A DNA stretch of 64,000 bases, taken from the NCBI GenBank assembly GCA_012862575.1, contig BLSF01000010.1, positions 62,001 through 126,000 on the forward strand, in the 5' to 3' direction. Positions 1,469 to 53,039 of this stretch are shown here, piece after piece. The position numbers and the translations under genes were made by a program. The stretch comes from Parietichytrium sp. I65-24A. Lineage: Eukaryota > Sar > Bigyra > Thraustochytrida > Thraustochytriidae. The notes under the pieces are model-generated. The model did no database searches, was not told where the DNA came from, and saw only the letters and a program-made list of their open reading frames with translations. Each line of letters begins with the position of its first letter. Position 1 is the stretch's first letter.

Positions 1469-2390
1469 GCACTCATGCCACTGGTATACTGCGTTTAAAG
1501 TGTCTCAAAGTCCCCTCCCCCCTTCCCCTTTGTTTTTATATCCTTTTTCAAATTTGAATGACAGGCACAAAAAATATTTTCTCTCTTTGCGAAAGCCCTA
1601 GCTAGCAACACGGTTTTCTTGTTGCATATCTATTGACACTTGGTTTAAAAAGCAAGAAATCTCAAGCAGCTCACTTTTCCGATACTGGTTTCTCTTCCAT
1701 TCCATTACCGAAAAAACTCGGCATCGAACCCCAAGACACCGAGCTCAAAGATTGGTCGACCAGTTCTCTTTGAACTTCAAAGATGACAGTCAGATCAGGA
1801 AAAGCCTTTTCGTTCGCGCATAGTTGGCATCGAGGACCATCAAAGAATCGCTCTATTCAACCGACCTCCCCACATCGCAGCACGCCTGTCAGGCTCGTCC
1901 AGAGCGCACGAAACACAGAAGCGAGTTGTTCATTGTTGATGCAACGCCCCACGCACGCAAGTCTCCCTCTCTCTCTCTCTTTTCCTCTACGACCTGGCGT
2001 AGCACTCTTGGACTTGCTCGTCAATCACATCAATCAAAAGGGGGAAACGTGGGCGCACGCCAGCGAGCGCGCAAGGCTAAGCTCGGTAGAAGGAACTTGT
2101 AAGCAAGTGGCTTAGAAAGTACACACGCAGGTCAGGTTGAAGCAAGTGCAAAGCCGGTGCATACTAGCAACACTCAGTGACTGGGCACTGACTGTGAGTC
2201 ATGATCATGTGAGTCAGTGCTTGATCGTGGAAGGGCGGATAGTGTATGGGGGTGATTGTAGAGGAGTAGAGAAGAAAGTGGCGAAGGCAATTCCCGAAAA
2301 GTGTCGCGGATTAGAGGCAGTGGAAGAGAGGCAAAGGCTCTGTTTGGGTGAAGGTGCGGGTGGTGGCGAGCGCAGAGTAGGAGGACGAGG
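1469..2390. other. Intergenic gap with likely promoter of the lectin-like gene
   Basis: No convincing gene. It holds pyrimidine-rich stretches (1505-1550, CT run 1969-1983). A quasi-palindrome at 2185-2220 has perfect 9-base arms, GCACTGACT and AGTCAGTGC, around CATGATCATG. From about 2230 to 2400 the + strand becomes purine-rich, running into the start codon at 2391. Short open frames at 1783-2115 have no recognisable content. Confidence 0.5.
2189..2199 (+). promoter_or_regulatory. TGACWGTGART site
   Basis: Exact match (TGACTGTGAGT) about 190 bases before the lectin-like start codon at 2391, in the same orientation, inside the quasi-palindrome 2185-2220. Function is inferred only from recurrence; see findings. 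Confidence 0.5.
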
Positions 2391-3542
2391 ATGAGGATGG
2401 CGAGGAAGCTCCTCGTGGGCAGCTTGGTGGCTGCCATGTGCGTGGCTGTGCGCGGCAAGGTGATCATGACAGAGGACTTTGAAGGGGGCTTCTCGAACGA
2501 GTACCTCTATCAGCTCGACTACGGCCCTGTGGCGTCGACCGGCGGAGACCTCCTCAAAATTGACACTAGCTCTGCTTACTCGGGGACGAGCTCGATGCGG
2601 ATCGAGGTGGCAGCATACAAGCCCGTATTTTTGGTGTACAAGATTGCCAACCCGGAGCAATATCAGAAACTCTTCGTTCGGGCCTACGTCAAGTTTGACA
2701 AGCCGCTCGGCGGTACGGCAAAAGAGGGGCATCAGACGCTCATAGGCTTCAAGGCAGCGTCTTCGTTCGAGAGCGGCCAGGTGAATGTGAACACAGAGCT
2801 GCGCTTTGGTCAAGTTTTCGGCTCAGTCGGACTTAACATTGTGCCTTCGGATGACATCATGTCCACGTCCGGACCTGTTTTTGAAGCTGGAACGTGGCAC
2901 TGTTTGGAGATTGCAGCCGATACAACTCCAGAGTTTGATACCTTGAAGGTTTACAAGGAAGGGGTGGAGATCATGTCTGTGACGAAGGCGAGTGACTGGG
3001 AACACGGCGCCGAAACTGGCACATATCTCACCGACAAGCTTGCTGGGGTCGCCTTTGGTATCCAGGAGTTTGGAGGCGCCGGCCTGCCTGGATCGCCTGG
3101 CTCCTATTCTATCGATAGCATTGTCATCGCAGATGAAGCTATCGGCTGCTCAGGAACCGGAGGCGGAGGTGGCGCAACTCCTTCAACAAGCCCCACAACG
3201 GTGGGCACTGCTCCTACGCCATCCACTCCAACAGCGCCATCGACGCCAACCACGTCAACCACGCCGACGAGTCCAACTGTGCCCACTCCCTCGGGCACCC
3301 CAACGACTCCGACGGCATCGAGCACAGCAGAGTCCGACTCTGGCATTTCCAGTTCAACGTTGGGCGCAATCGGCATCATAGGAGGCGCAGCTGTTGTGAC
3401 TGGCGCAATGGTATACTATATGAGCCGGAAGAGAGCTATGCAAGCCAACCAGCTCAGCCCTGTCACAAATCCTCAGACCTTCCAAAATAATTATGATAGC
3501 AAACAACGGGTTGCTCCAAGATACAGCGACTTGCCCTTGTGA
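2391..3542 (+). CDS. Cell-surface lectin/lyase-like jelly-roll protein, single-pass
   Basis: 383 residues. Residues 1-22 form a signal peptide (KLLVGSLVAAMCVAVRG). Residues ~25-250 look like a concanavalin-like beta-sandwich: an early EDFEGGF segment, then FVRAYVKF, ELRFG and TWHCLEIAAD followed by a VYKEGVEI strand. That pattern resembles Cip1-like and polysaccharide-lyase-like carbohydrate-binding domains. Residues ~255-315 are a Thr/Pro/Ser-rich stalk, likely O-glycosylated. One membrane helix lies at ~323-345 (AIGIIGGAAVVTGAMVYY), followed by a short basic tail, giving a type I protein with an extracellular domain. A role in binding or cutting surface polysaccharide is inferred from the fold; no catalytic residues could be assigned. 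A second ATG two codons downstream could also be the start. Confidence 0.75.
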   Translation: MRMARKLLVGSLVAAMCVAVRGKVIMTEDFEGGFSNEYLYQLDYGPVASTGGDLLKIDTSSAYSGTSSMRIEVAAYKPVFLVYKIANPEQYQKLFVRAYVKFDKPLGGTAKEGHQTLIGFKAASSFESGQVNVNTELRFGQVFGSVGLNIVPSDDIMSTSGPVFEAGTWHCLEIAADTTPEFDTLKVYKEGVEIMSVTKASDWEHGAETGTYLTDKLAGVAFGIQEFGGAGLPGSPGSYSIDSIVIADEAIGCSGTGGGGGATPSTSPTTVGTAPTPSTPTAPSTPTTSTTPTSPTVPTPSGTPTTPTASSTAESDSGISSSTLGAIGIIGGAAVVTGAMVYYMSRKRAMQANQLSPVTNPQTFQNNYDSKQRVAPRYSDLPL

Positions 3543-5304: not shown

Positions 5305-5336
5305 GCCGGTGACGTGGTGGCAAGGAGCAGGCAAAG

Positions 5337-6179
5337 ATGCACGCTGCATACAAGTCCAACCTGCTGGGGAAGAAAGGAGGCAAGGCGCTGCTGATCATCG
5401 ATCCGCAGACAGACTTTCACACAGGGTCGCTAGCTATTCCGACGTCGCTGAAGGATGCAGCTTTGACGGCCGAGTTTATAAATGAGACCGAGCTGGATGA
5501 GATATATGTTACGCTGGATTCTCACCAGAGGTACCATATTGCGCATGCAGCGTTCTGGCACAATAAGGTCGGAGAGCATCCGCCTCCGTTCACAGTGATC
5601 TCCGAGGAGGACCTCAAGTCGCGCAAGTGGTTCCCCACAGTGTCTGCACAAGAATCCTGGTGCAAATTTTACTTGGAGTCACTGAAGAAGAACGGTAAAG
5701 TGTTGTGCATCTGGCCCGACCACTGTCTCGTAGGCTCCGAAGGCGCCTGCGTTGTTCAACCAATCCAGAAAGCTCTTGGCGAGTGGGAGAAAAAAACCAA
5801 TCGAGTCGTCACTTACATCAGAAAAGGTTGCAATAGTCTCACCGAACACTACTCTGCGTTTCGCGCCGAGGTGGAGCGGCCAGACGACCCTTCCACTGGG
5901 CTTAACCGAAACTTGATTGAGAAGCTGAAGACGCACGAGAAGGTGTATATTTGCGGCCAAGCGCTCAGTCACTGCGTAGGGCTAAGTGTTAAGGACCTCT
6001 CCGAAAACTGGGCCTCTGAAAAGCTGTCACAGCTCATAGTCCTCGAAAATTGCACGTCCAGCGTCAGTGGATTCGAAGCCCAGGGCGCAGGGTTTCTAAA
6101 GCTGTTTCGCGAGAAGGGTCTCAGCGTGCAAAAGCTGGATGCGCAAGTTACCCGCTCGAGCTGTTTTGGCGTCTTTTAA
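5337..6179 (+). CDS. Nicotinamidase/isochorismatase-family cysteine hydrolase, paralogue 1
   Basis: 280 residues, single exon, starting at an ATG. The family catalytic triad is visible: Asp22 (LLIIDPQTDF), Lys163 (YIRKG) and Cys213 (LSHCV). Metal-site residues of nicotinamidases are present as Asp61-x-His63 with His67 or His70 (LDSHQRYHIAH). The IWPDHCLVGSEG segment and NSLTEHYSAFRAEVE also match the nicotinamidase-related branch. The likely activity is amide hydrolysis of nicotinamide (to nicotinate and ammonia, NAD salvage) or a close relative; the exact substrate is inferred. No targeting signal is obvious, so it is probably cytosolic. It lies tail to tail with a close paralogue at 6740-7573, about half identical by eye. 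Confidence 0.88.
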   Translation: MHAAYKSNLLGKKGGKALLIIDPQTDFHTGSLAIPTSLKDAALTAEFINETELDEIYVTLDSHQRYHIAHAAFWHNKVGEHPPPFTVISEEDLKSRKWFPTVSAQESWCKFYLESLKKNGKVLCIWPDHCLVGSEGACVVQPIQKALGEWEKKTNRVVTYIRKGCNSLTEHYSAFRAEVERPDDPSTGLNRNLIEKLKTHEKVYICGQALSHCVGLSVKDLSENWASEKLSQLIVLENCTSSVSGFEAQGAGFLKLFREKGLSVQKLDAQVTRSSCFGVF

Positions 6180-14344: not shown

Positions 14345-15766
14345 TTACTTGCTGCTGAGAGCAGCAACACCTGGAAGGTTTTTGCCCTCCTACATAGTTC
14401 AAACAAGTGGGGAACAGTGTTAGACTTTCGCGTCATCCAGAGGAAAATTGGTCGTGCACACAAAACTTACCAGTAACTCAAGGCTGGCACCACCTCCCGT
14501 TGAGACGTGGCTGACTTGGCCAGTTGCTCCAAACTTTTTGACGCAAGTCGCGGTGTCGCCTCCTCCGATTACGGAAGTTCCACCAGCTTTTGTAGATGTG
14601 ACCACTGCGTCGAGAATGGCACGAGTCCCTGAAGAAAAGCCTTCCCACTCAAACACACCCATCGGGCCATTCCACACAACAAGTTTCGCGCGAGACACGG
14701 CCTCTGCGAAAGACTTGGCGCTCTTTGGGCCAATGTCGAGTCCAAGCCATCCTTCGGGGATCCCAGTCTTGTCGTCAACAACCTTTACTTCGGCGTCTTT
14801 ATCGAATTTGCTCGCGGCAACGTGGTCGAAAGGCAGATGGATTTTCACACCCTTGCTCTTTGCTTTTGCCATAATTTCCGGCACAAGTTTGGCGCCCTCC
14901 TCGTCAAATAGAGATTTGCCAATTTCAACACCATCAAGTGCCTTTTTGAAGGTGAACGCCATCCCTCCGCCGATAATCATTTCATCCACTTTGTCAAGCA
15001 AGTTGTTGATGAGCTGGATCTTGTCTGCAACCTTGGCACCTCCCAGAATGGTGATAAATGGTCTGGCCGGCTTCTCGAGTGCCTGGCCGAAATACTCGAG
15101 CTCCTTTTGAAGTAGAAGGCCGGAGACGCGATCCGCGAGATCTACACCAACCATGCTAGAATGAGCGCGATGCGCGGTACCAAAGGCGTCGTTGACGTAC
15201 ACGTCGCCAAGCTTTGTCAGCGACTTGCGAAACTCCTTCACTTTGGCAGGGTCGGCTTTCACCTTTTCCCCGTCAATTTCGCCTTTGCCCTCCTCTTCGA
15301 TGTGAAACCTCAGGTTCTCCAGAAGAACGACCTGCCCCCCGCTTAGGGAGCTGCACACCTTTTCCACGCTCTCCCCAACGCAGGCGTCCAGAAATGTGCC
15401 CTGCTTGCCAAGGAGCTCCCAGAGTCTGTCTCCAACAGGCTTGAGCGAAAGGGACTTTTTCACCTTGCCCTTTGGCCTACCCAAGTGCGACATGAGCACC
15501 ACGCCGCTAGCCCCGTGGTCCAGAACGTACTTGATCGTCGGAAGCGCCTCCTTGATGCGCTGGTCATTGGTAATGCGGCCGTTCTCATCGAACGGCACAT
15601 TGAAGTCCACTCTCACGAGCGCCCTCTTGCCGCCAAAGTCCACATCACGCACGCTCTTCTTGTCTGTCACGCTCACCACCGAGGAGAGGGACCTGCTGCC
15701 GGTCCCTGCCCTTCTGAAGGCCGATCTCCCGGCTATCATGGACCTTGCTCGCAAACGCAGAGCCAT
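14345..15766 (-). CDS. PGK: Phosphoglycerate kinase, probably mitochondrial, two exons
   Basis: Exons 15766-14471 and 14389-14345 (joined, 446 residues). The enzyme transfers phosphate from 1,3-bisphosphoglycerate to ADP. Family blocks: RVDFNVP (52-58), [42 protein letters not shown] and GGGDT. Residues 1-30 are Arg/Ser/Ala-rich with no acidic residue, a classic mitochondrial presequence. Stramenopiles are known to carry lower glycolysis in mitochondria, so this targeting is plausible. The reading frame through GASLELL meets GTAAGT; after an 81-base intron ending TAG it resumes with [14 protein letters not shown] and stop, the normal PGK C-terminus. The unspliced frame would instead add an unrelated 16-residue tail. 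The first in-frame codon (15769) is GTG, so the ATG at 15766 is taken. Confidence 0.95.
14390..14470 (-). other. PGK intron (81 nt)
   Basis: On the - strand it starts GTAAGTTTTGTG and ends CTATGTAG. Phase 0. It leaves a terminal coding exon of only 45 nucleotides including the stop. Confidence 0.93.
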
Positions 15767-16172
15767 CACCGCTCTCCTGACAGGCTTTCTTCTTCAACCC
15801 GAAGCAAACTCAACGTTGCTCTCGGTGCAACGATCCGTGCGACTGTACAGGGTTGTGCGATTGCGAGACTGTGAGACTGCACGGACGAACCCGACTTGAC
15901 CGATTGGACTGCGCTGGCAATGCTTGCAATGCTTTGGCTGTGTATTCTGTGTATCTGCAACTGCAACGTCGTGAAGAAGATTGCCTGCGTCACAAGCTGC
16001 TATGGGCGTTCGTATTTTCTCCTCTAGGCTTGGGCTGTGATCTCGGTACTCTCGGTGTTACTATGCACCGGTGCACCAATGCACAGTCAAGCCCAACAGA
16101 GAACAAGAAAAAAGAGTCTACAGACTCACAGAGCTTTCCTTTTTTCTCTCTTCTTTTCTTTCCACTTTGGGT

Positions 16173-16772: not shown

Positions 16773-18851
16773 TTATGGGAGCTCCAACTGTGAGATCACT
16801 GGAAATGACTTTGACAAGTCGCGGTGCGTTGAGCCCTTCCAGTGGAGAGCATCGTCTGAACAAACCTCGCTAAGCACGGAGAGAGTCTGTTTCCGCGGTT
16901 GAAGGTGGTACTTGGAAGTCAGGACATACTCTGAAATCTGTGAGGGTTTGTCCTTGTATTTTGTGGGCACAAGGCGAGCGAGAGTGTTTTTGCCTGGATT
17001 GAAAGTAAACAGTTCTTCGGCCCCAGGTACGAAAGAAAGATCCGAGTCCCGATCCTTAGTTTGCTCCTCAGTCGGGTGCTCGTTCGGATATGCAATTTTA
17101 GAACCACTTGGTGAGGATTCCCCACGCCTGGCATCTCTCTCAAGAAAGCCGGGCATCTTCTCGAAAGGGTCCGTAGTTCCGAGTATATCCATAATCCGGG
17201 AATACTGTTGCTGGTGCTGCACTTTGCAGGAATTGATGGTACCTGTAATGACAACGAGCTCAGATTGCAGAATGCCCAACTCCTGGATGAATTCCCGGAT
17301 AGCAAGACACTGTACCTGCCTGGTTTGAGCGGCTTTGTCGCTGTTCCCACTCTGCAGGCTCGTCGAGAAAACGTGAACGTTTCGCCCCTCGCGACGGATG
17401 CAAACATAGTAAACCCCCTTGTTGAAAAATCTGTCCTCTTTGCAGGATTCTTTAAAGATCTTGAACTTGGCCCTCGTGATGGGATACTTGGAAAGCACGA
17501 CGACTCCGCCATTCAATAGGCATTTGCCCCTCACCAATTGCTTGATGCCGGACCCGAGCATGATGGTTTCGAAATACAGTCCGAAGCGTTTCTTCAGCCC
17601 CCCTACCAAGGTCGTGACACTTTTGGCACAGTAGGCCTCGGTTAGCACAATCAGGTCTAGCTCCCGATCCCAATGGCCGGGAGCTTCCTTAAATACCTTG
17701 TCCAATGCTTTCGGAATCAATTCGGCACGGCGCTGCTTCTCCAGCGACGTCCCATAAAAGTGCTCAGCCCAGCTTGTCACTTGGCCGGGAAGCATCCAAA
17801 TGTCATAGGTCAATATTGTGAATGTCGCGGGGCTGGGTTGCTTCTCACTGCGGATTCTGGGCATAAGTTCAGGGCTGCAATAGTCGCTCAAAGTTCTCCG
17901 TCCATCGCGCGAACTATACACTTGAGAGTGTATCGTAAAGTAGAGGGGCGAGCGCGAGGAACTTTGCGTACTAATATTGTAAGAGAAAATGTTGGATTTG
18001 GCCAATGTCCAGGAGGCCTTGGGACCGTCTTCTGCCTTCTGGCGATCGTCAACCGCGATGACGCAAGCGTGGTCACCGGTTCGCACAGGTCCAAACTTTC
18101 CTGGACACACGAACTGCACTTGCCACGTGTGCCCGCGACGGCTCTGAATCCAAACGTAGTCTCCATAGTTAATTACGTCTTCCTCGCTCTGGAGATGATC
18201 TAAATCGTCTTGCGCCTCCCCGTTCTCAGCGTTCATCTTAGAGTGAAACGTCTCACTAGTTACAATGTGGAACGCCTCGGCGTACTGGCTTTTAGGATGC
18301 AAGAACAACCCTCCACGTGGGCCTTTTGTTGGCATCGAGAACAATCGGGTGGCCACCCAGAACCCGCATGCACTCAGAGCAATTGAGTCACCGTACTTTA
18401 TTTCCACCCCTCCGTTCTCAACGATGCCCTTGGTCTCGTTCAGTCCCGGATAACGCGACTGAAGGCTGTATCTCACTTGGTCCAAGCTGCAATAGCGAGA
18501 GCTCTTGCGCGAGCTTTTGGTGATACTAAACCCCGAACTTCCTTCGGATCCTCGTCTGCTAGCGTCGTCTTCATCGACAAGCTGTCTTGACGCTCTTGTG
18601 CTCGCGCTCGCAGCGGTAGCCCCGGAGGAGAGCTCATTTGTACCAGAAACCGTGGACTCGTACGACCTCTCCGAGGAGCATCCAAGGTCAACTAGTCCGC
18701 CGCCAATCCACCTCTTGCAAACCTGCCCGGCCTCCACTCCATCCACGACGAGCCCCTCCTTGAACAAGAAATCGGCCACAGTTCTGTGCGACACCTTCTC
18801 CACACCTTCAATGTCGCCCTTGAACACTTGCGCCACAAAGTCGTCCCTCAT
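16773..18851 (-). CDS. Sphingomyelinase-fold (DNase I-like) protein lacking catalytic residues
   Basis: 692 residues from an ATG. Residues 1-130 are a Ser-rich head. Residues ~130-340 are a beta-rich region (GDSIALSACGFWVAT, GDYVWIQSRRGHTWQVQFV) of unknown family, possibly trefoil-like. Residues ~343-692 follow the sphingomyelinase C / endonuclease-exonuclease-phosphatase fold: LTYDIWMLP, DLIVLTEAY with Glu405, NGGVVVLSKYPI, FNKGVYYV, VHVFSTSLQSG, GTINS and DLSKSFPV. Three family motifs are changed at catalytic positions: THLQ to TSLQ (Ser498), GDxN to GTIN (Thr538) and the final SDH to SKS (Lys681-Ser682). The first-motif Asn is Asp. It is probably a pseudoenzyme that keeps the fold, perhaps binding lipid or a partner. 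No signal peptide or membrane helix is apparent. Confidence 0.75.
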   Translation of the reverse strand: MRDDFVAQVFKGDIEGVEKVSHRTVADFLFKEGLVVDGVEAGQVCKRWIGGGLVDLGCSSERSYESTVSGTNELSSGATAASASTRASRQLVDEDDASRRGSEGSSGFSITKSSRKSSRYCSLDQVRYSLQSRYPGLNETKGIVENGGVEIKYGDSIALSACGFWVATRLFSMPTKGPRGGLFLHPKSQYAEAFHIVTSETFHSKMNAENGEAQDDLDHLQSEEDVINYGDYVWIQSRRGHTWQVQFVCPGKFGPVRTGDHACVIAVDDRQKAEDGPKASWTLAKSNIFSYNISTQSSSRSPLYFTIHSQVYSSRDGRRTLSDYCSPELMPRIRSEKQPSPATFTILTYDIWMLPGQVTSWAEHFYGTSLEKQRRAELIPKALDKVFKEAPGHWDRELDLIVLTEAYCAKSVTTLVGGLKKRFGLYFETIMLGSGIKQLVRGKCLLNGGVVVLSKYPITRAKFKIFKESCKEDRFFNKGVYYVCIRREGRNVHVFSTSLQSGNSDKAAQTRQVQCLAIREFIQELGILQSELVVITGTINSCKVQHQQQYSRIMDILGTTDPFEKMPGFLERDARRGESSPSGSKIAYPNEHPTEEQTKDRDSDLSFVPGAEELFTFNPGKNTLARLVPTKYKDKPSQISEYVLTSKYHLQPRKQTLSVLSEVCSDDALHWKGSTHRDLSKSFPVISQLELP

Positions 18852-20135
18852 TTGCGCAAACCCAGCTCCTTCAGCTTGCTTGCCATCAACTCCCCGCTTC
18901 GAAAATCGACACTCGAAACTCGAAAATCAAACTCGAACCTACCACACAATTAACCAATCAACCTCCACCAAAAACCGCACTTGGCAAGGTTCTCCTCAGC
19001 GTCCTCACACTGCCTCAGAGCGGCTGCCAGGTCAATATGTCCGCGACGTACGCCGAGTAATCCTCACTGATCTGCGCTCCTCCTCACGACGGCTCACAGT
19101 TACAAACGCGCGTACATCCAGTACGTCCTCTTTGGTATTTTTGGTACTCAGTATCGTCTCACTGTTCATGAAACAACTTCTTGGGACCGCTCCAGAAAAT
19201 GCCTTCTAATCCTTCTATCGTTTACCCCATAAAACCTTACCCAAGGCCCTCCGGTTCCTCCCCGACTAGCGAGCTAGTATGCGAGGTCTTAGCGTCGCCT
19301 AGGGATGGTTGGAACCTCTGATGTTACAGATTGCGTGTAAGAGGACAGTAGTGCGAGGAGGAAAGGTAACTTCTGTAAAGTTTGTAGTAGATAGAGGATT
19401 AGGCGCGCGCACACCGCGCGTTGGAGCGGTCGCGTGCGACTGAGTGAGATATAATGGGGTCTTATTAATGTTAGTTAATGATGGAAAGCTTTCTTTCCTA
19501 ACAGTGTAAGTACTGATATGTACTGATGCTGACGTTGAGAGTAAGTGTAAGTGTAAGTGTAAGCTTGCCAATAAATCAATGCTGCCGAGAACATGGCTTA
19601 CGTGAAAAATGTGAAACATCAAAGAGAGCGCTCCTCGTGCGATACGCCATGATACGCCGATGCGAAGAAAACAGTGAAATCGAATGGGACAGCGAAAAGG
19701 CGTTGCAGATGTGGAGGCTGATTGACTTTTGAGAGCTTGGTCCCACAGTGCTAACAAACTGTCCGGGAGGAGAGGGTCTTCAAGAGATCGAGAAAAAGGT
19801 GTCTGCGGCGATTGGTGGCGCTGGAGTTGTTGCATAGTGCAGCTAGCTGGAGCTTACTGATTGAGAGTAAAAAAGACCACTTAAAACAGAAAGGAAGAAT
19901 CTCGAAACTAGAAATCTTGCTTGAGGGATCTGATCTAGCCCGGAGACGACAACGGTGACAAAAGCAGGGACAGTGCGATGAACGTGAGTCACAAAGAGGG
20001 GGAAACGAACAAAACAGCTGAAGGGTGACAAACGAAAGGTTAATAATCCTGATAGTTATTAATAAATGTTGTTGTTGATAGAAAAACACAAGGTGTTGCG
20101 TGCCTTCGCGAGGAGTGCGAGACAGCACACAAAGA
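18852..20135. other. Intergenic gap
   Basis: Upstream side of the sphingomyelinase-fold gene and 3' side of the receptor gene. It contains a TAAGTG hexamer run at about 19540-19563. No RNA gene or protein recognised. Confidence 0.45.
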
Positions 20136-22511
20136 TTACACATCCACCCCTTCGGAGGACTGGGTCGGTCCAGGAGTGACGCCATACGAATTATGACGAT
20201 GGCCTCCAGTGCGGGAGCTGTATTTTGGCTCCTGAATATTGAGGTAGGCTGCGTAAATGCGCGAACCTGCAATGAGCATGGCGGTCATTATTGTTGCCAA
20301 AAAGATGCACACAGACACGAAAACACTGAGGGTTGGCGTCGACATTCCGTCGAGGAAGCTCAGTGCAATCGCAAATGTGAAAAACATGGCAGCGTTATAG
20401 TTGCTAAAAAACATAAACTTTGCCTCGCCAAAAATAACTCCGGCAAAGTCTTTGGTCTGCTGGGCGAGAATGCACGACACAACAAGGACGATCACCGCCA
20501 CAAACAGGTAGATGAAGAGAAGCACAGAGTTTGATGCGCACTTCTCCTCATAGATTTCATACGCGGAGTCGACTAGTTCTGTTGTCACGGGGCCGTCAAG
20601 CATGAAATAAAGGGCCAATATCCACAAACCAACGAGGAAAATGGAGGCACCTGAAAGTACAGTGAGCTGGTATCTCAAGAGAATTGTATGCCTTCGTGCA
20701 TCTCGGCGATCGAGCTTATATTTGACACGCATCAGCGAATTTATGATGATTTGCTTGACCAACAAAGAACCCGCGAAAAACACAAACCCGGTAATGACCA
20801 ATGCGGCGCGCATGATGCAGCGCACCTCAGAAACCTCCCCAATCACCATGACCGCAGAGCAGTTCAGCATTGCTCCGCCGAGTAAAAAGTTTAGCATCGT
20901 CCAGACTCGCGCGGCTTTGATCGCCGGCGTAGCTCTCATGAGAACTGTCAGCACCGCGAGGCAAACGAGAATGAGCACTGCAAGTCCAGCAATGCCGATT
21001 ATGACATTGCTTTTGGCGTTGTTGTAAGGCACGTAAACGCACGTATATTCAACGGATTCCTTTTCGATAGGAATTTCTCGATAGGTCCACCGCGTTTTGT
21101 ACACAGTGGATAGAGTGCTTGGATCCGCATAGCTACAGATGTCATCTGGGACATCCCAAGTGACAAGCCCCTCGTCTGTGTATGCGCTGGTCTTGTACAT
21201 TTTATAAATTTGCTGGATACCCTCTGTGGTGCACCCACACGTAAAGTACGAAGCCACCAGATCCTCGTCGCGCCAAGTGCTACCGGAGAACTGGTTTTCA
21301 GTTGCGTTCGTCCAGAGCTCGACTGTGTCCGTGTTTTCTTTGGCCCACTCGCACGCGATTTGACGATACGAATTGCTTGGATTGCGGTATTTTTTCACCA
21401 GCATTTCCTCTTGTTGATCAGTTGATGTGTACTTTAGCGCAGAAAGAAGCACCCCTCCGTCGGGAAACTCAGTTTGAAACGAATTGGACACCAGTTTATA
21501 GAACATCTCCGTGGGGTAATCGCAATCTACGGAATCGCTTTCCCAGCAGTCTGTCGAGTGCGTGGGCAACATCACACTTGAGAGGTTGAACACCTTAAAT
21601 AGAGCGTGTGGTTTCCAAAAGTAGAAGATAACTGGCTCCCGGCTGTCGATGGCGTCTTCAATCGCATCGATAAGGTTTTCTTCAGTCGCCGCAAATTCAA
21701 TAGTCATGTTCAAATTGAGGTTCTCAATTAGCTGCTGATCAACTTGGACCCAGTCTGGCGCACCAGCAAGAAATCTGGCACCGTAAGTTGGCAAAGTTAT
21801 GGTTGGGTCAGCGTCACACTCTGTTGCTGTTGCATACCCGCCTACTTCAACGGGGGTTCCACCAAGCTCCTCGGCGGCCATGCACGGGAATTGAGTCGCG
21901 GATGTTACGTTGGTCATGTCCGTTGGACAGCACGAGAGCTTGTCTTCTGGGTCTGCAAAGATCTCGATGTTACTTTGAGTCCTCAAGAACCTCCAGTATT
22001 CAAGGGCAGGGTCGTGGTCGTCCAGCACAAACTCTGGCAAATACCAACCTATTTTACCCGTGGCGCCAAGAGTACCAGCATCAATCACGCTCCCGTCTCT
22101 CACTACATACGTGTTGTAACTGTCTTGATGCCCGCTCGGCCACACCTCAAGGATCCCATGAATTTTGTTGTCTCGGAGCTTCTCCCACATTCCATCCCCG
22201 GCACCTTCGCTGCTCTCCACTTCCAGCTCTTCAGAGATCTCAACCGGGTACCCAAGAAACTCCTCAATAAAGATCGCTGCAAGGTGGACATTCATATGCG
22301 ATCCGCCCCAGCTATTCACCCCGAGCTTGACGAGGCATGGGTACTCGCCGGAAGAGTCAATGTCGCAACGAAAACGTTTTCCGTCGCTTGTGGTCCATCT
22401 TGACTCCGCGAAACAACAATTTGAACTATCCGCCACACATGAGTATTCGCTCAGGTCAGCACGCGCAAGACCGGCGCAGAGAGCCAGGGATAAGAGGGCA
22501 ACCTTGAACAT
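20136..22511 (-). CDS. Class C seven-helix receptor with an OpuAC-type betaine/choline-binding ectodomain
   Basis: 791 residues from the ATG at 22511. Upstream codons of the same frame run through a TTTC microsatellite and encode a Lys/Glu run, so they are leader. Signal peptide 1-18 (FKVALLSLALCAGLARA). Residues ~55-365 resemble bacterial periplasmic glycine betaine/choline-binding proteins: WGGSHMNVHLAAIFIEEFLGY, ILEVWPSGHQ, GKIGWYLPEFV and FYFWKPHALFKVF, the last matching the family's (Y/F)-W-x-P-H segment. A Cys-rich linker (~370-495) precedes seven helices (~502-755). The intracellular loop before helix 6 reads FGEAKFMFFSNY, like the FNEAK(Y/F)I.F signature of metabotropic/GABA-B receptors. 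It is probably a plasma-membrane sensor for a quaternary amine or related osmolyte; ligand and coupling are inferred. Confidence 0.82.
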   Translation of the reverse strand: MFKVALLSLALCAGLARADLSEYSCVADSSNCCFAESRWTTSDGKRFRCDIDSSGEYPCLVKLGVNSWGGSHMNVHLAAIFIEEFLGYPVEISEELEVESSEGAGDGMWEKLRDNKIHGILEVWPSGHQDSYNTYVVRDGSVIDAGTLGATGKIGWYLPEFVLDDHDPALEYWRFLRTQSNIEIFADPEDKLSCCPTDMTNVTSATQFPCMAAEELGGTPVEVGGYATATECDADPTITLPTYGARFLAGAPDWVQVDQQLIENLNLNMTIEFAATEENLIDAIEDAIDSREPVIFYFWKPHALFKVFNLSSVMLPTHSTDCWESDSVDCDYPTEMFYKLVSNSFQTEFPDGGVLLSALKYTSTDQQEEMLVKKYRNPSNSYRQIACEWAKENTDTVELWTNATENQFSGSTWRDEDLVASYFTCGCTTEGIQQIYKMYKTSAYTDEGLVTWDVPDDICSYADPSTLSTVYKTRWTYREIPIEKESVEYTCVYVPYNNAKSNVIIGIAGLAVLILVCLAVLTVLMRATPAIKAARVWTMLNFLLGGAMLNCSAVMVIGEVSEVRCIMRAALVITGFVFFAGSLLVKQIIINSLMRVKYKLDRRDARRHTILLRYQLTVLSGASIFLVGLWILALYFMLDGPVTTELVDSAYEIYEEKCASNSVLLFIYLFVAVIVLVVSCILAQQTKDFAGVIFGEAKFMFFSNYNAAMFFTFAIALSFLDGMSTPTLSVFVSVCIFLATIMTAMLIAGSRIYAAYLNIQEPKYSSRTGGHRHNSYGVTPGPTQSSEGVDV

Positions 22512-35660: not shown

Positions 35661-37775
35661 ATTTGGTGCGCAGAGCGCCCACTTTTGCCAACAAAAGATT
35701 TGTTGGTCTCTCTTTTAAGAAGCTGGCCAAAAAGCTCCAAATCAGTGTTGGTTTCCCGAGTTTGATATTCCGGTATTGAGCCGCCGGTTGCCTTTCCGGG
35801 CGATCATCTTGCGGCTTTGATTTTTAACCGGTGAGTAAAAACGGCGCGGATTTGAGCCGCGTTTGTGCTGTAAACATAACTCGTACCCCGCGTTGCCACA
35901 TTGTTTGGTGGGGTAGTACTAGAGTCTCCGAACTCGTGGAAAAAATATTCGGAGGAAACCATATTTTCTTTTTCGTAATCGTCTGTAGACTGCCCAAATC
36001 GCATTTCTAGAGACAGCTCTGCGAAGACTTGAGCCATTTCTTTCCGCTGACACAGAAATTGTTCCGAACCGGTCCTATCAGTTTTTTGGGAAATTTGGGA
36101 CCGATTCATTTGCAAACCCACACGATCATTTCTCAGCCATTTACTTGGTACTGCTTTAATTGAACATTTATGCATCAAAACTGTTCTTCACGCCACCTTT
36201 GGCAAAACGTGAGTTTGTTAGCTTTCAGGAGGTAAAGATTTCCCTTTCATGCGTTCGAGAAAAAAAAAGTTTACATATCAGCCAAGATCGATGCAATCGC
36301 TGATATATCAGTAAAATGATCGAGCCTCTCTGAAGCAAATTTCTGCGCATTTGTTCACTGTTGTCGCTGCTGTCTCGAACTTCTTGGCGGAAATGATCCA
36401 ACGAAGTGAGCTGCTGCAAACCCTGCCCATGGTGTGGCGCCGATGTCGTGGTTCCTAAGGAATTTGGAGACTCACTTCTTGGCCCCAACTTACAACACTT
36501 TGAGAACTTCAACAGAACAAACAACACCTCAATTCACCGTCGATCCACGGGCTCCAAAAGCTTCGTCTTTGATCAAAATTCAGAACAAAGGTTGACCCTC
36601 GGGTCTCCGACTTCCGTGATGTCCGACGCCAACCTTCTCTGCCATTTCGTTGCACCAACTGCAAAACGCAAAATCTTGCAATCCAAAGCGATCTTCCTTA
36701 TTATACCAGCAGGCCAGCAAGTCACCTACTGCACCTTACTGTCACTCTTTGAAGATATTTTCCTCGCTCACCTTGCGACAAAAGTGCTTTTCAGATGTAA
36801 TTCTGTCAAATTAATTCCAAGTGCATGTAATTTTATTGTATGGAAACACTTTTGGTAGGTAGGCCGGAAGCATGACTTTCAAATTACACGCTGTACGCAA
36901 TGTTTCCTTGCTAGTTTAATTTCATTTTGAAATATTACATGCGTTTGCGCATTCTCCTTTATTCGCCTTTTCTTAGCTTTGTCAGTCGTAAGTTATGATC
37001 ATCATGTTGAGGGGACTGCCGGCCTAGGCTGCCTACGCTGTCTCGGAAGGAGAGGATCAGCTCAGCAGAATCACATCAGTCCGACAGTCCCCATCACCAG
37101 CTTAGCTAGTGCTTGTTTTCGCAGACAACTTACAGAATGATGCAGATAGCACCTTCAGAGTCCTTCAGAGTTCGATGCCAAGAATCAATACTCATTGTCA
37201 GTACAAAGAAAGTAGGAGAGCTTCGTCCTTCGCCTTTTTGTCCTTTTTAAAAGCTTGTACTACCATGGTACTGAGTACCTTTGATTTTGATCTTGCAAAA
37301 GCTCTTGATCTTTTGGCTCTTCTTCTTGTGGTGGAGAACTGAGTACCGGTGCCAGTGCCTTTCGTGAGCTCGCGAATGCACCTCAAGGTCGAAGAGAAAG
37401 AGAGAAAAAGACAGAGAGAGACAAGCAAGTAAAAGAAGTAAAAGAGCGGAATGCGTCCGGGATGTATGCTCTAACTCGAGAGGGAGTGAGTGACACAGCA
37501 AGCCGCTATGACTTTTCTAGTATTGACTTTGAGTGTACTTTTTACTTACGTTCTTGTCTGGAGCGCGAAAAGGATCTTATTTGTTAGCCAATTATTTCTC
37601 TTTCAAGTCCAAGGAAGGGTCTCCGGCCTTGACGGGTACTGAATATGCATTCACTGTCAAGTCATGACAGAAACCAAACGAGACTCTCACTCTCAAGCAG
37701 CTCACACGCTTGCGCGCATACAAGAGTTGGGTTACCTCTCGCAAGCGCAGCTGCCTGATCAAGAGCGCTCGAAAG
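35661..37775. other. 2.1-kb intergenic gap
   Basis: AT-rich in the middle. It contains an A/G-rich run (GAGAAAAAGACAGAGAG) near 37393-37425 and a TGACWGTGART site at 37649. A 150-residue open frame at 36406-36858 has no family resemblance and is not called. Confidence 0.45.
37649..37659 (-). promoter_or_regulatory. TGACWGTGART site
   Basis: Exact match on the - strand (ATTCACTGTCA on +), 117 bases upstream of the monooxygenase ATG: the closest of all sites to a start codon, but in opposite orientation. Confidence 0.45.
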
Positions 37776-39513
37776 ATGGTTGCGCAGGCCTTTGCCAAGT
37801 GGAAGAAGCGAGCGCTGCTCGTTGCGGCGCTCCTCGCAGTGTATAAATTGTACAAAGCTTTGAAAGCGCGCCAGCTGAGAAATGCAGCAAAGAAAAGGCT
37901 TGTAAAGTGTCAGCAAAAGGACGTCAAGGTTGCTATCGCTGGCGCCGGGTACAGCGGCTTGTGCTTGGCGATCAAGCTGAAAGAAGCTGGAATTCCATTC
38001 GAGATCTTTGAGAGAGATGAGGACTTTGGAGGAACTTGGCTGAAGAACAAGTACCCCGGTGCTGCTTGCGACATCCCGAGCTCGTGGTACTCGTACTCGT
38101 TCGAATACCACTGGGACTGGAGCATGGTGTGGCCGCTTCGGGACGAGATCATGCAGTACATTCGCACGGTGGCACAAAAGTATGGTATCCCTGCTCACAC
38201 CAAGTTTGAGTGTAAAATCGACAAGGCTTCCTATGACTCTTCGCGCGGTTGGCTTGTAGAGTACACCGACCTCAAAACTGGCGAACAACACTCCAAGTAC
38301 TACGCGGTGTTCCTCGCTGCGGTCGGTCAGCTTGACGAACCCAAAATCCCAGAATATCCTGGTCTGGAGAAGTTCAAAGGCATTCAGATGCATACAGCAC
38401 AGTGGGACCGAGCCCATAGCTTTGCAGGCGAGCGCATCATTGGTATTGGCACTGGGCCGTCTGCCGTGCAAGCCTTCCCTGAGCTTGCCAAAGAATGCGA
38501 GCATCTCACAGTCATTCAGCGATCGCCGACCTGGATTTCTCCAAAGGTGAATACCCCATTTTCAAGCACAATGCGCTGGCTGAACAGCTTGCTTCCAATC
38601 ATGTGGCCTTTGAGACGTTTTGGTTCGTTCCTTTACGCTGAAGCTCTCTTTTACATGCTCATCAGGAAAGATTCTCCGGTCAACGTGAACGAAAGCGCCC
38701 AAAAATTGATTGGTGCCATGATGCGACAGCAAATGGGCCACAAAGTAAAAGAACTCGAGCACAAATTAATCCCTCCAAAAGAGCCGCTGGGTGCAAAACG
38801 TATTGCTTTGACATCAGACTGGGTTCCGATGTTTACACGTGACAATGTCTCTCTTGAGACTGATCCAGTGGAGTCTGTCACCGAGAACAGCGTCATCCTC
38901 AAAGACGGGAAAGAAATTCCATGCGACGGCATTGTGTATGCAACTGGGTTCAAGTCGACCGATTTCTTGGCGTCCATTAATGTGGAGTCTGAACAGAAGA
39001 AGAGGCTCTCGGAGGTGTGGAACGGCGTCCCACGATCATACCGCGGAGTTGCCGTACCTGGGTTCCCAAACTTTTGGATGATGTACGGACCGGGGTCAAA
39101 CCTTGGACACGGTTCAATCGTAAGTGTCGCGCGGCAGCAGGATTTAGAAATTCCTGAATTTTGAAGATTTCTGCCCTTGCTAACTCTTGTGTTTTGATGA
39201 TGATGTTACTCCATCGTTCCTTTTGTTGAATCTACAGATCTTTATGATTGAATGCCAAGTAAACTACATCGTCGGAGTCATCAAGCAGATGGTCGACAAG
39301 GATCTCAAGGCCGTGGAAATCAGCCGAGACAGCTTCCAGGCGGACGTCGACAGACTGCGCGAGGATCTCAATGCAACCACCTTCGTTGACGCTGACCACA
39401 GCTGGTACAAGACCAAGACCGGAGAAGTTGTGAACAACTGGAGCGGGTCGTGCACGAACTACTATTTCCATATGGCGCAACCAGATTTTGACGCCTATGA
39501 ACACACCAAATGA
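37776..39513 (+). CDS. Baeyer-Villiger-type flavin monooxygenase, two exons
   Basis: Exons 37776-39119 and 39238-39513; 539 residues. The start is the first ATG; the frame upstream has only TTG. A short hydrophobic N-terminal segment (ALLVAALLAVYKLY) may anchor it to a membrane. The FAD Rossmann motif is G56-A-G-Y-S-G61; the NADPH Rossmann motif is G223-I-G-T-G-P-S-A230. Between them F200-K-G-I-Q-M-H206-T-A-Q-W210-D fits the Baeyer-Villiger fingerprint FxGxxxHxxxW(P/D) exactly. It would insert oxygen next to a ketone to form an ester or lactone, or oxidise a heteroatom; the substrate is unknown. Splicing gives YGPGSNLGHGSI-IFMIECQVNYI, the conserved C-terminal block of the family. Without it the frame ends after a 12-residue unrelated tail. 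Confidence 0.92.
39120..39237 (+). other. Monooxygenase intron (118 nt)
   Basis: Starts GTAAGTGTCG and ends GAATCTACAG. Phase 0. Conserved protein sequence continues across the junction. Confidence 0.93.
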
Positions 39514-46785: not shown

Positions 46786-49700
46786 CTACTTCTCTTCCCT
46801 TGGAGTCTTCACTTGATCTAAAAGATTGCTGACGGTTTGACCGCCTTTAGCACCAGGTGGCAAGGACGAAACCTCTCTCTGTTCTTGGGGAACGAGTGCG
46901 GCCTCAGACGAAAGTTCCTGGATTTCCACTTTATCCTTCGCCTCATCTGACGCCTTCTTTTTGCTCCTTACCTGCTCGAGGTTCGGAACAGCCATGGGCA
47001 TCTCTGGAATGACCTTAGAGATGTCAAACATGTTCTTGCCCTCACCATATCTGTGGATGATATTTGCAGCGATAAGCCTCGCAAGCTGCTCAGTGTTGTT
47101 TTTGGATTCCAAAACCGGACTGCCGGGCTTTGTAGCCGCAGTGGTTTTCTTTTTGTTCTTGCTTTTGAAGCGAGCGTCCGCTTTCAGAAACCCTTCGAGT
47201 TCGTTTTGGAACTTGACATCGGTGGACTTGAGCTTATCTAATTCGACCGCAAGCACTTCGGCAAGTTGCTGCTGCGTTACTAGATAGCCCTCCGATTTAA
47301 AGACTCTGCGCCCGATCGTGTCTTCTTCGTCCAGAAGCTGATTTTTAATGACGAAATCATCAGTGAGCTCACTGATGGCATAGTCACTAATGTACTCTTC
47401 TGCAGACAATCTGAATCCTGGGAGCGTGCGGAGGAGACTTGAGAGCATCTCCAGCACTTCCGCTGGCAGCGTTTGACTGTGCTCCGCGGCAGTTTTAACT
47501 TCGACATACGCCTCAACTAAAATTGCAAGCAAAATGTTCATCAGCATGAACAAACATACGAACAGAAACGAGTAATAGAATGTCACCGCTGCAAAATTTG
47601 AAGGGTGCTTGAAGAGCTCGGTCGCGACGCTCAGATCTCCCAAAAGCATCGAGAAGCAGGTGTTGAAGGCGAGCGGTAGAGTCGAAAAGCTAGAGATACT
47701 GCTTCCAAAGATCACATACGCTAGCATCGAGTACACGAAAAATATCAATGCGAAGAGGACAGAAAAGTGAGCGAGATCGGCTGCAGCGTTTTGAATGGTC
47801 CGAGTCACCAAGCCCATTCGCTTCTGGAAGTCCAGGACCTTGAGAATCCTGAAGACAATCAATATGATTGAAATCCCATTCCAACTCATATATGATAAAG
47901 ACTTATCACTCAGACTTTTCGACTCGACGAAGTAGTTGAGCATCTCGTCCATGCCAGATATATTTGCGTTTGTGAATCCCGCTGATGCTGTCTGATCAAT
48001 ATAAACACCATACCTTTCCGCAGGTGAGTAGCTTTCTGCATCTCGGTTGTACGCAATCCAGTCTACACCATTCACTACAAACAGGAGGATGCTGGCAAGA
48101 TCCAATATGTTCCAAAATGAGGCAAAATAGGCGAATGGACTGCGCGTTCGGTACCATGCCATGATGAGCTCCTTTGCCTCTATCGCGAGGTTGAAAACGG
48201 TCAACACGAAAAACGCAATCTCTATGAAATGCTGCTGTCCTCCGCCCTCCGCTGAGTACTGCTCCACGCGAAAAGTCTGCACTATATAATTCATATTGAC
48301 CCGTCCACCAGTTTCAAATGTAAATGTAATCAGCGTGTATGCAAAGAGATGATGCTCGGGATTGTACACTACAAAACTAACAAACAGGTCGCTGGTATCA
48401 CTGTCCAAGTAAAATCCCTCCTTCCCATAAGCCAAAAAACGCAACGCGTCCGCATTCCTGAGATTCACGTCAAAATACAATGGGAAACCGCCCCAATTTG
48501 AAGAACTTGACGCTTCTGCGTAATGGAATCCATATGCAAGGCCCATGCTGCTGACGTTATTAGAGTCTTTGGGATCGTGGTACACGTCTTTATCGGCAAA
48601 TATGGCTGAATCCACATTCAAGCTACTAGACTTGAGAAAAACAGGATCGGCCCCAAACGGCTCTGTAGAGTACTCACCCGCTCGGCAAGTGTCAGCGAGA
48701 TACGAAAAGCGTGATGTGCAGTTTGTGTACTTGCTCCGCTTTTGCAAAAGCAATACACCACCGATCAATCGATTTGCCGACGAAACGTATCGTTTCAGTG
48801 GAATGGCGGGGTCCGGAGTAAGTCGCTCGAATTCTTCCTTCGTGCTGTACTCAAAAAGCTCGAAACCCTGCTGATACACAGTCTCAAATGTTCTTTCGCA
48901 GCAGTCTCCAAGATCAAGCCCGCACTGTACTGAGGAGCACTCCTTGTCACAGACACCGTCCGCCAACATTGTGCAATAGCAGCTTGGTGCGCACACATAG
49001 TTAAGAAGTTGGGCAGTGTCGTCGCACATCCCATTATCAAAGTTGCATTCCCCAATATTGCACTCATCATCGCATATGCTGTTCACGAGCATGCTATACG
49101 TACATTCTTCGCTTGCAGCTTCTTCACATGTGGACTACATTATAGATTCCCCCACTTAGTATCCACAAATAGCCTTAAAATCCTTGGGTCGCGAGAAACT
49201 CAAATTGCAAAACAACTTACTGGTATGTCCTCGTAACATTCTTCCATGTCCGCATCGTAAGAGCAATGGAATTTATCTGTACACCCTTTCATGTTGCCGT
49301 GGCACGCTTCACATGTAAGGCCGTGTTCGCATGCGCCTGCTTGAGCTGTCTGGAGCGCCCTTCGGTCGCCCAAGTCCCGTTCGGCCGGAACGCATTCCCC
49401 ATTCCAGTCACAGAATGCATGCGACTTTTCGCAGCTTGTTTTGAACTCGCAGAACGAGCAATTTGATTGGCATTTCGAAGTACAAGATTCTCCGCTCCAG
49501 CTGCAAGCCGCATTGTCCGTGCAAGAATACTCGTCTACGCAAGCGCTGCACCGGGAGCTGCACAAATTCGACGAGGACAAAATACGGGCCGGACCCGGCG
49601 GAGGGACAGGCGGTTGTACAGTTGCTGTTGGAGCAGTCGTCGGACTTTGCGTTGGCGGAGGTCCTTGCATCACTCCCTCGGTCGGGGTTGAAGTTGGAGC

Positions 49701-52700
49701 GTTTGACGCCTGTTGCGCTGTCGGTGATTCCGTTGCCTCTTCTGTCGGTGCTTCAGTTGGCTCTTCTGCCGGTGATTCTACAGGAGGGTGCGTGGGCTGT
49801 CCTGTTGGTTGCTCCGTCGGTTGCGCTGTCGGAGCCCCGGTTGGAGCTTGGACCGGCGATTGCGTAGGCTGCTCCGTTGGCTCCTCTGTTGTTGGCGCAT
49901 CCGTCAATTCTTCTGACGGTTGCTCAGTAGGTCCTGCTGCTGGTTGTTCTGTTGGTTCTTCTACAGGAGGATTGGTGGGCTGCTTTGTTGGCGCATTCGT
50001 CAATTCTTCTGACGGCTGCTCAGTAGGTCCTGCTGCTGGTTGCTCTGTTGGTTCTTCTGTCGGTGATTCTACAGGAGGATTGGTGGGCTGCTTTGTTGGC
50101 GCATTCGTCAATTCTTCTGACGGCTGCTCAATGGGGCCTTGCGCTGGCTGTTCTGTCGGTGTTTCTGTTGGCTCTGAAGCTGGAACAGGGGGTTCGGCAG
50201 TCGGGCTCTCGGCCGGGCTTTCTACGGGTTGATTTGTTGGTGATGAGGCTGGCGCCTGTGCACTCGGGCTCTCAGCCGGGCTTTCTACGGGTTGATTTGT
50301 TGGTGATGGGACTGGCGCCTGTGCACTCGGGCTCTCAGCCGGGCTTTCTACGGGTTGATTTGTTGGTGATGGGACTGGCGCCTGTGCACTCGGCGAAGCA
50401 ACAGGGGTTTGCGCGCTCGGTGCTGCCACTGGTGCTTGTACAGGGGCAGAGTTAGTAGTGGGCTGAGTGGAGCCCTGACCAGAGCTCGACGGAGCAGTCA
50501 CGCTTCCCAGTGAAACTTCACACTGCACACCATCGTAATCGGTGTCGCACACACACTCAGCTTGGGTGCTCGAGACCTCTGCACAGGTTCCGTGCCCAGA
50601 GCACGTCCTACCGCTACATAGGTCGAAAGAGAAGTCGTCAGCGTTAAACTTGTCCGCTGAGACCTTGTCAAGCGCCTCCTTCAGTTTATCCTTGTCAGTG
50701 GCTATGGATTGGATATAAGTCACGTTGAGAGCACTGGAGGACTGATATGTTTCAAGACTTTGCAGCGCGCTATCCTTCGGATAGAGGTCGAACCGAAAGG
50801 ATTTGGACGTGACTGGGCTTGAAACCGACTCAAAAGTGAATTCGAAGTCAATGCCCTCGTAGAAAGCCAAAGACGATACGTCGGAGTTCATCAGACTGCC
50901 ATCCAAAGCAATGGACGTATAAGTGTTATCCCCTGAAAACTCGCGATTGATTGTGAACTCTAATGTGTCAGTGCCCAAGCGGCGGCGTCCTGTCAGGGAT
51001 TCGATGTTGACTGTGCAAGTTGATGACGTCCCACATATTTGGGAAGTGATAGATTCCTGAAACAGAGCCAAGACCTCTTCAGTTAATGCACCAGATGTCA
51101 AAGTGATTACTATTTCTCCAGTCGCATCTTCTTCGATTGTGGACGTCACATCGAGCTGGCTTTGGTAATCGGTCTCGAAGCTTGCAATGAACTCAGTATT
51201 GAAACTCTCGAGTTCCGCAAGTAGATCATTGATCTCTGAATCTGTCAAATTCGACAGAGAAACCGAGACAGTTGCGACTTTTTCTGCGGTAACCGAAGTA
51301 GTCGGGGCAGCGGTAGTACCGCTTCCTGAGCTCGTAGTCGGCGTAGTTGCAGAGGTCTCATCTTTCCTGCACGTCAAAAGCTGCAAGTCCCAGACACAAC
51401 TGGCTGCTGAAAGTGTGCATACATTCACGTCGAGACACGCGGCACATTCTGTTGCGCAAGTCGGTATTGGGAGGCATGAGTCGGAGTCTGTATTGCAAAG
51501 TAAGCCGTCATCGCAAAAGTCTAGTGGAACACTCGAACACAGAGACTCCGCATCCACATCTGCGGCAAAAGTACATTCTGAGCTTTCCCAAGTACAGAAC
51601 TCCTGGCTCGCGCATCTTGAGGCAGAATCACACGCGTAGCCCTCGCAGTCGTTAGCAAAGCAGGTTGGTTCGCAAAAGCTATCATCAGAATTCCATGAGC
51701 AACCATCAAAGGCATCACACTCTGTAGAATTGCAAAATTGACACTGGTCATAGGCTTCAGCACAAGTTTCCTCATAGCACTCTGAAGTGGTAGACGAGAA
51801 ACTACAATCTTGCTGGAGGCAGGCTTCCTCATTGAGGCACGCGAAGCATTGCGCCGAGCTGCAGATAGCGTTTATGACCCCTGTCTCGATATAACAGAGC
51901 TCCTGGACTTCCGTCTGAGTGTCGCTGATATTTGCAGCAGTTTCTTTGCACTTGTCCCACTCGAGGAGAGTGTAGTCGTGGTATACTAGAGAAGTTGTTG
52001 TCACCGGAGATGCAGTAGGAGAGTTTGTTGTTGTGCCATTTGTTGTGCTGTTCGTCGCTGTTGGAGATATTGTTGGAGAACTCGTTGAAACGTTTGAAGC
52101 CGTTGGAGTAGAGCTCGGGGCGGCCGTTGGCGAGCTCGTTGTGTCATTAGAGCCAGTTGGACTCAGTGTCGGTGCCATAGATGGGGCGGGTGTCACAGCT
52201 GCATACTCCAGAACTTTGGTGTAAATTTTCCCGGAAATACCTCCCCGCGAAGCTTTGAGCTGAATGGACCAGTCCCCGTCCGGGAGACTTGCTGAGGCCT
52301 CTACAGTTTCGTTGAGGGACGTGAAGGTTTGATCGGTCGTGTATAGACAAATTTCATGCATTGAACTGCACAAGTTCCATGACGCAGCAGCGAGTTCCGA
52401 GGCGTCTGAGAAGTCCACCTCGATTTCGATGTACACATCGGTCAGCGCCGTTTTAGGGTAATAGCCACAGTCGTCTGCGCACCCATAGTCGCCCCACGCC
52501 CGGAACTCTAGTGGCTCGTCGCAGATTCCATCTCCACAGACGGGGTCAGTAAACATCTTCTTCACGACAGTTTCATTCAGCCATGTCCAGATATCTGACG
52601 CTGACCAGTCTATGTCGGAGTACCCAGATAAGACAGCATCTTTCACGGCTTCTTCCACTAGAAATGCGCTTGTGGGCGTCCGTTGCTCCGTGAGCATCAC

Positions 52701-53039
52701 GAGGTAGAGAGATACGTAACCTAAGAACGCAAGCAAGCTGCAATAATTAAGGCGATTGTCTCGGCTTTGCTTTAAATGTTCGTTCACGTTTTCCACGAGC
52801 ACCCTGCCAGGGAGCATTTCGAGATCTCCTGTCCTCGTTTTTCGGTATACGTTTCCAGGCTCCTTCCCATTTTCTTCATCTACTTTGACCGAGCGGGTAG
52901 CTGGGGTTGTGGCTTCCCTCCGCAACAACAATCGCCTGCTGCTCCCTTGAGATGAATGAGAACGGCGGACGTCTTCATCGTTCTCATCCTCGCCATCTTT
53001 CAGGGCATTTAAAACAGCAGCTACAGCAGCACCTTGCAT
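46786..53039 (-). CDS. Giant polycystin-2-like (TRPP) channel with ~1,200-residue extracellular insert, two exons
   Basis: Exons 53039-49221 and 49134-46786; ~2055 residues. The frame extends upstream to a GTG at 53144, but the first ATG is 53039. Residues ~97-119 are helix S1 (LNYCSLLAFLGYVSLYLVML). Then follow CGDGICDEP...GCADDCG (LNR-like), a Ser/Thr-rich spacer, Cys-rich modules, an EGF-like module (~805-845, CSGHGTC...CDTDYDGVQC) and a long PT-rich stalk (~850-1150). More Cys repeats and two Lin-12/Notch repeats (~1275-1355, LVNSICDDECNIGECNFDNGMC) come before the polycystin TOP domain. Helices S2-S6 (~1578-1830) include the pore segment FNTCFSMLLGDLSV. A Lys-rich cytosolic tail ends the protein. 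Splicing joins EDIP to STCEEAASEECTYSMLVN, completing an LNR. It is a Ca2+-permeable, probably mechano- or chemosensory cation channel. Confidence 0.88.
49135..49220 (-). other. Polycystin intron (86 nt)
   Basis: On the - strand it starts GTAAGTTGTTTTG and ends TATAATGTAG. Phase 0. It joins two long frames that otherwise look like separate genes. Confidence 0.9.
49905..50130 (-). repeat. Minisatellite in polycystin stalk, 96-108-base units
   Basis: Three starts of TTCTTCTGACGG at 49908, 50004 and 50112 (+ strand). Units encode EQPSEELT(N/D)APT repeats of 32 and 36 residues and stay in frame. Confidence 0.85.
50200..50395 (-). repeat. 63-base minisatellite in polycystin stalk
   Basis: About three near-identical 63-base units encoding a 21-residue SPTNQPVESPAESPSAQAP.. 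repeat. The high identity suggests recent expansion and likely length polymorphism. Confidence 0.9.

Follow-up and report, generated by a model that had tools for sequence, protein, structure and literature searches.

Within the window, by which we mean the whole 64-kb stretch of DNA analysed here, we identified a 791-codon open reading frame on the minus strand at 20136..22511, running from an ATG at 22511 to a TAA at 20138-20136 with zero internal stops. These coordinates are exactly those given in the initial annotation. A second in-frame ATG lies upstream at 22688, and the signal peptide starts at 22511. The product matched two families in Pfam at E<=1: OpuAC (PF04069; E=1.2e-17, 64.8 bits against a curated cut-off of 21.2) and 7tm_3 (PF00003; E=5.8e-22, 79 bits against a cut-off of 33.5). 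An OpuAC domain and a class C seven-helix (7TM) domain are thus encoded by one gene, as the initial annotation had proposed on the understanding that the OpuAC match would prove significant. When the halves of the OpuAC domain were scored apart, the N-terminal one gave 25.0 bits and the C-terminal one 45.0 bits, each over the cut-off alone, indicating that both lobes are present and that the match stands far above chance. A tblastn search of the receptor within the window (E<=1) returned the gene itself, and otherwise matches at E 0.18 or weaker. The gene comes from a single contig, as would suit two adjacent genes fused by misassembly or through a missed intron or terminator, but we regard such an artefact as highly improbable, both in view of a frame free of stops from the signal peptide to TM7 and because the same domain pair has been published for six Allomyces proteins (PMC3251606, available sections).

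The domain layout could be followed along the whole of the frame, all features being on the minus strand. The product begins with a signal peptide recognised by eye (residues 1-18, 22458..22511; MFKVALLSLALCAGLARA), probably cleaved after ARA, of which residues 2-18 form a helix in the AlphaFold model. The OpuAC domain follows as two Pfam stretches, comprising residues 61-164 (22020..22331; profile 3-98), with W68, W124, H128 and I154, and residues 244-391 (21339..21782; profile 120-256), with W254, Y297, W299 and C322/C330. We accordingly place this domain at about residues 60-400, in correction of the earlier ectodomain bounds of ~40-370. Between the two stretches lies an insert of about 49 residues with four Cys (residues 190-238, 21798..21944), delimited by alignment to six bacterial proteins, from all of which it is absent. 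A linker (residues 392-497, 21021..21338), defined from the Pfam results, the Cys positions and the model, leads to the class C seven-helix domain (residues 498-746, 20274..21020; profile 5-246 of 251), which carries C565/C658, K586 in TM3 and E696 within FGEAKF. The remaining residues, 747-791 (20139..20273), comprise the end of helix 7, extending to 759 in the model, and a short, probably disordered tail (pLDDT <50 over 760-791). All four motifs quoted in the initial annotation were located in the protein, WGGSHMN at residue 68, GWYLPEFV at 155, FYFWKPHALFKVF at 296 and FGEAKF at 694.

We investigated the surroundings of the receptor gene by scanning 17 longer frames of the window, and found no ABC permease or ATPase among the neighbouring frames scanned. 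These included frames of eukaryotic kinds, such as a polycystin-type channel with LNR and a Cu2_monoox_C protein with NHL, and frames of widespread kind, such as PGK, DnaJ, DEAD-box and MutY-type genes. The polycystin/PKD channel, with an LNR (Notch) domain, lies at 46789-49134 (minus strand) and is preceded by 68 bases by a 1320-codon frame rich in Cys and PT repeats (49203-53162, minus strand), so that the two may form one large gene. The phosphoglycerate kinase (14423-15793, minus strand; E=2.5e-151) has an Arg/Ala/Ser-rich N-terminal extension that appears mitochondrial-like by eye; mitochondrial PGK is described in stramenopiles, for example Blastocystis and a diatom, in the accessible part of PMC6198282, where Schizochytrium and Aurantiochytrium go unmentioned. 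An FMO-like flavin monooxygenase is encoded at 37668-39161 (plus strand). Within this frame, FKGIQMHTAQWD resembles what we take to be the Baeyer-Villiger fingerprint. Two further frames gave no Pfam match at E<=0.01: a 717-codon frame at 16776-18926 (minus strand), the C-terminal part of which resembles a sphingomyelinase-like endonuclease/phosphatase by eye, and a frame at 5313-6176 (plus strand) that is nicotinamidase/isochorismatase-like by eye (ALLIIDPQTDFH). The frame at 2352-3539 (plus strand) matched a Cip1-like polysaccharide-lyase core at 24.8 bits, just below the cut-off of 27, and by eye its product starts with a signal peptide and is anchored to the membrane at its C-terminus. Neither Rfam (at gathering thresholds) nor ARAGORN identified RNA genes in the window.

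For the predicted structure, we ran AlphaFold on the full-length protein together with 30 bacterial relatives. Averaged in ten-residue blocks, pLDDT was 74-96 over residues 51-180 and 241-410, with most of the binding domain above 80, 33-53 over residues 181-240, which take in the insert, and 35-74 over the 7TM region. The 7TM region folded alone, without relatives, reached a mean pLDDT of 51; this model is poor, and the 7TM assignment consequently rests on the sequence. In Foldseek, which returned 920 matches at E<=10, the top match was TmoX with TMAO (4xz6; E=8.3e-19, TM-score 0.83 by target and 0.32 by query), followed within the best 50 by DmpX with DMSP, a ProX, ChoX with choline and the lactococcal OpuAC with glycine betaine. 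These best 50 of 920 were substrate-binding proteins, sensors built from such proteins, or the OpuA transporter carrying one, and the binding domain, as modelled, has the two-lobe PBP fold. The aromatic cage between two lobes suggested in the initial annotation finds its lobes in this model, and its putative walls, a box of four Trp, in the alignments described below.

We additionally examined the seven-helix domain for features of class C receptors. Of the seven hydrophobic helices claimed in the initial annotation, six were recovered as stretches by hydropathy (threshold 1.6), whereas the helix at 697-718 was seen in the low-confidence model alone. In alignment with mGlu3, C565/C658 fall on the loop cysteines, K586 on the lysine of TM3 and E696 on the glutamate within FNEAKF; the available part of PMC3727952 lists the loop Cys pair and the basic TM3 and acidic TM6 residues among those conserved in, or important for, class C activation. 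Helix 7 has SRIY at residue 750 and the PK motif was not seen there, the PDB alignments ending before this helix. The linker, which had been termed Cys-rich, does hold four Cys after residue 391 (425, 427, 459 and 491; five with C387), but an NCD3G cysteine-rich domain was absent from it in Pfam at E<=1. This absence does not exclude a class C identity, since GABAB receptors and non-metazoan members also lack NCD3G (PMC3251606 and PMC3727952, both in excerpt). On these sequence features, we assign the receptor to the class C (Glutamate-family) type.

We then considered the bacterial relatives of the binding domain. A tblastn search matched 33 of 72,556 plasmid records at E<=0.01, most strongly in a Nonomuraea gerenzanensis protein (E=4e-19, aligned over residues 61-400). 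Seven loci were fetched from the plasmid matches, and in all five that were annotated an ABC ATPase or permease gene adjoins the match, with a choline dehydrogenase gene also beside it in one. The Nonomuraea gerenzanensis locus (L001, 444-4278) encodes two tandem OpuAC-type binding proteins after a long frame that is permease-like by eye; the position of W299 is occupied by Trp in the first of the pair and by Tyr in the second. Three scans of viral contigs, one queried with the full protein and two with alignments, yielded zero relatives, and phages gave a single match, in a Listeria phage, too weak to be used (E=5e-3).

A first profile search of genome contigs confirmed none of eight candidate stretches, and a later one confirmed 265 of 329. 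The best 80 of these 265 are actinobacterial by title, one being an "uncultured bacterium"; the search patterns were built from the receptor ectodomain and two Nonomuraea proteins, so that this sample is biased and silent on other phyla. We used 78 of the 80, dropping two (L074 and L086) in which the match was too long for a single gene, and kept 30 actinobacterial rows at <82% mutual identity, with three sequences interrupted by a stop in frame (L041, L042 and L048) left outside the 30. Of 64 columns conserved to 90% or more across the 30 actinobacterial proteins, the receptor retains 42, at 29-35% identity, a count that takes in a few columns beside or inside the insert (e.g. 211, 213, 217), which are mostly mismatches. 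C322 occurs in all rows of the six-protein and 30-row alignments, and C330 in all but one (L005). In a tree of 40 rows, the ectodomain adjoins 32 actinobacterial rows but falls outside them, with a support of 94/90 that was not starred, on a long branch that the program flagged for joining other long ones. A grouping with six alphaproteobacterial rows was not rejected (p-AU 0.208), an actinobacterial origin of the ectodomain being one possibility among others.

The correspondence of pocket residues was taken from HMMER alignments. In E. coli ProX, the cation is presumably held by W65, W140 and W188 and the carboxylate by H69, and the expected letters were found at these mature positions in proX of E. 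coli MG1655. All four align with receptor residues of the same kind (W124, H128, W254 and W299 for W65, H69, W140 and W188) at an overall identity of 13%. The TmoX pocket comprises W55, W102, F106, E131, W177, F220 and W222 (PMC8918994, available text), of which W55/W102/W177/W222 correspond to receptor W68/W124/W254/W299, F106 to H128, E131 to I154 and F220 to Y297. The DmpX pocket comprises W35, T64, W84, E113, W152, A153, Y200 and W202, with Y200 contacting the DMSP sulfonium (PMC10030565, available text); here W35/W84/W152/W202 again correspond to W68/W124/W254/W299, and E113 to I154, A153 to V255 and Y200 to Y297, the position of T64 falling in a gapped, uncertain stretch that we left unscored. 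As read from these alignments, the aromatic box of W68, W124, W254 and W299 is retained.

The nearest relatives do not keep the box constant: all 30 actinobacterial rows have Tyr or Phe in place of W254, and 25 of the 30 have Tyr in place of W299. Ile154 stands where TmoX and DmpX have a ligand-contacting glutamate (Glu131 and Glu113, respectively), with Ile also present at this position in 29 of the 30 actinobacterial rows. TMAO or DMSP as first-choice ligand was set aside on this ground, and the suggestion of DMSP in the initial annotation accordingly went unsupported. None of the five alphaproteobacterial rows in the six-protein alignment has His at position 128; among the 30 actinobacterial rows, 28 have it, but it aligns only over a gap of two residues. 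TmoX, the ligand of which has no carboxylate, has Phe in this place, pointing to a carboxylate betaine over TMAO, and H128 would seem, less clearly, to point away from DMSP too. The position of A303 is Trp in all 36 bacterial rows of the six-protein and 30-row actinobacterial alignments, and Phe, Ser and Pro in TmoX, DmpX and ChoX, respectively.

Taken with the domain pair, these alignments suggest that the gene probably encodes a eukaryotic class C GPCR with an OpuAC Venus flytrap and a betaine-like quaternary amine as ligand, the betaine-type ligand itself being proposed with moderate confidence. The retained box and betaine-type His are in keeping with the osmolyte or quaternary-amine sensor of the initial annotation, although the domain pairing is not new, having been published in 2012 (PMC3251606, in the part available). 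It is possible, but in our judgement rather unlikely, that the same receptor design serves a non-betaine ligand through shifted specificity, such as choline, DMSP, TMAO, carnitine, ergothioneine or another cation. The fold accommodates many ligands, with DMSP, TMAO, choline, carnitine and ergothioneine structures all among the best 50 of 920 Foldseek matches; the glutamate has been lost (I154) and A303 is unlike the close bacterial relatives; Y297 is the equivalent of the DmpX Tyr that contacts the sulfonium; and a choline-binding subfamily is the single, though weak, NCBIfam match (25.8 bits against a cut-off of 379). Set against these are H128, standing where ProX has H69 and TmoX has Phe, and, for DMSP and TMAO, the same missing glutamate.

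The changes at I154 and A303, on the side of the pocket, would also fit a subunit that is blind to ligand or serves as an obligate partner, its fold having been kept for dimer contacts, much as GABAB2 partners GABAB1. We consider this improbable: all six of the residues that a pocket without a ligand should have lost, the four box Trp, Y297 and H128, are kept at identities of 13-35%.

For a betaine receptor, the following mechanism may be proposed. The cleft would admit a trimethylammonium compound, with glycine betaine or a near analogue (e.g. proline betaine) as the likeliest candidate; the cationic head of the ligand would be held among W68, W124, W254 and W299, with Y297 alongside, and its carboxylate would pair with H128. 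The lobes would then close, the linker with its Cys would relay this movement to the seven helices, and these would switch a G protein. Dimerisation, the relay of lobe closure to the helices and the switching of a G protein are all proposed by analogy with known class C receptors. More tentatively, glycine betaine outside the cell, or a related betaine (possibly DMSP), may be recognised by a working GPCR built on an acquired bacterial importer-type domain, by which the protist would read released osmolytes without prior import. Its role might, speculatively, be in sensing an osmolyte from other organisms or a change in salinity, or in sensing prey or a host.

To our knowledge, most class C receptors of protists have no known ligand. 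The ligands and contact residues of the OpuAC family have been solved in bacteria, so that here a ligand, of the betaine type, can be predicted and the prediction tested on the soluble ectodomain. If it is true, eukaryotic microbes would possess a receptor that senses abundant osmolytes directly, and class C receptors would appear to exchange whole periplasmic-type modules. The entries IPR000337, IPR002455 and IPR017978 are, we presume, those of class C receptors. GPCR domains under these three entries are reported to be enriched in thraustochytrids (PMC6050695, available part). Together with the neighbouring genes, notably the extended PGK, this leads us to guess at a stramenopile, perhaps a thraustochytrid, as the host.

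Finally, we compared the receptor with known systems. OpuAC was identified in 2012 in the N-terminus of six Glutamate-family receptors of Allomyces macrogynus (AMAG_01750, 04252, 14324, 14326, 15836 and 17562), alongside variants with BMP, LysR_substrate, PBP_like_2 and SBP_bac_1, and was noted, in the available portion of the paper, without a ligand prediction (PMC3251606). These are likened to the present receptor by domain architecture alone, OpuAC lying N-terminal to a class C 7TM in a eukaryote, and differ in their fungal host. In the literature searched, OpuAC and GPCR were both mentioned in PMC3251606 and PMC7952708; beyond the first of these, no report of the pair stood among the matches listed, subscription journals lying outside the coverage, and among these listed matches no GPCR was named for glycine betaine, a related betaine or DMSP. 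The main text of a choanoflagellate GPCR paper (PMC12716839) contains none of the terms OpuAC, periplasmic, betaine, Venus flytrap, PBP and substrate-binding.

TmoX, DmpX, E. coli ProX, B. subtilis OpuAC and the actinobacterial proteins share the fold and the tryptophan box with the receptor, which differs from bacterial OpuAC proteins in its seven helices, four-Cys insert, extra N-terminal Cys and A303. With mGlu and GABAB receptors it shares a 7TM with the loop Cys pair, the TM3 Lys and the TM6 Glu (FGEAKF here, FNEAKF there); unlike them, it has no NCD3G match, its TM7 PK motif was not seen, and its binding domain belongs to clan PBP (CL0177), whereas ANF_receptor belongs to CL0144 (PMC3251606, in excerpt). 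Closer in kind are the class C receptors of Phaeodactylum, which carry an ABC-sugar-type PBP domain (PMC3727952, in excerpt), and the amoebozoan Grl receptors, which carry BMP or ANF domains (PMC10445921, in excerpt); these are likewise protist class C receptors with a periplasmic-type domain, but of other domain families and presumably with other ligands. Thus, the architecture has been known since 2012, and what is added here is a member from another genome, together with a reading of its pocket and a testable prediction of its ligand.
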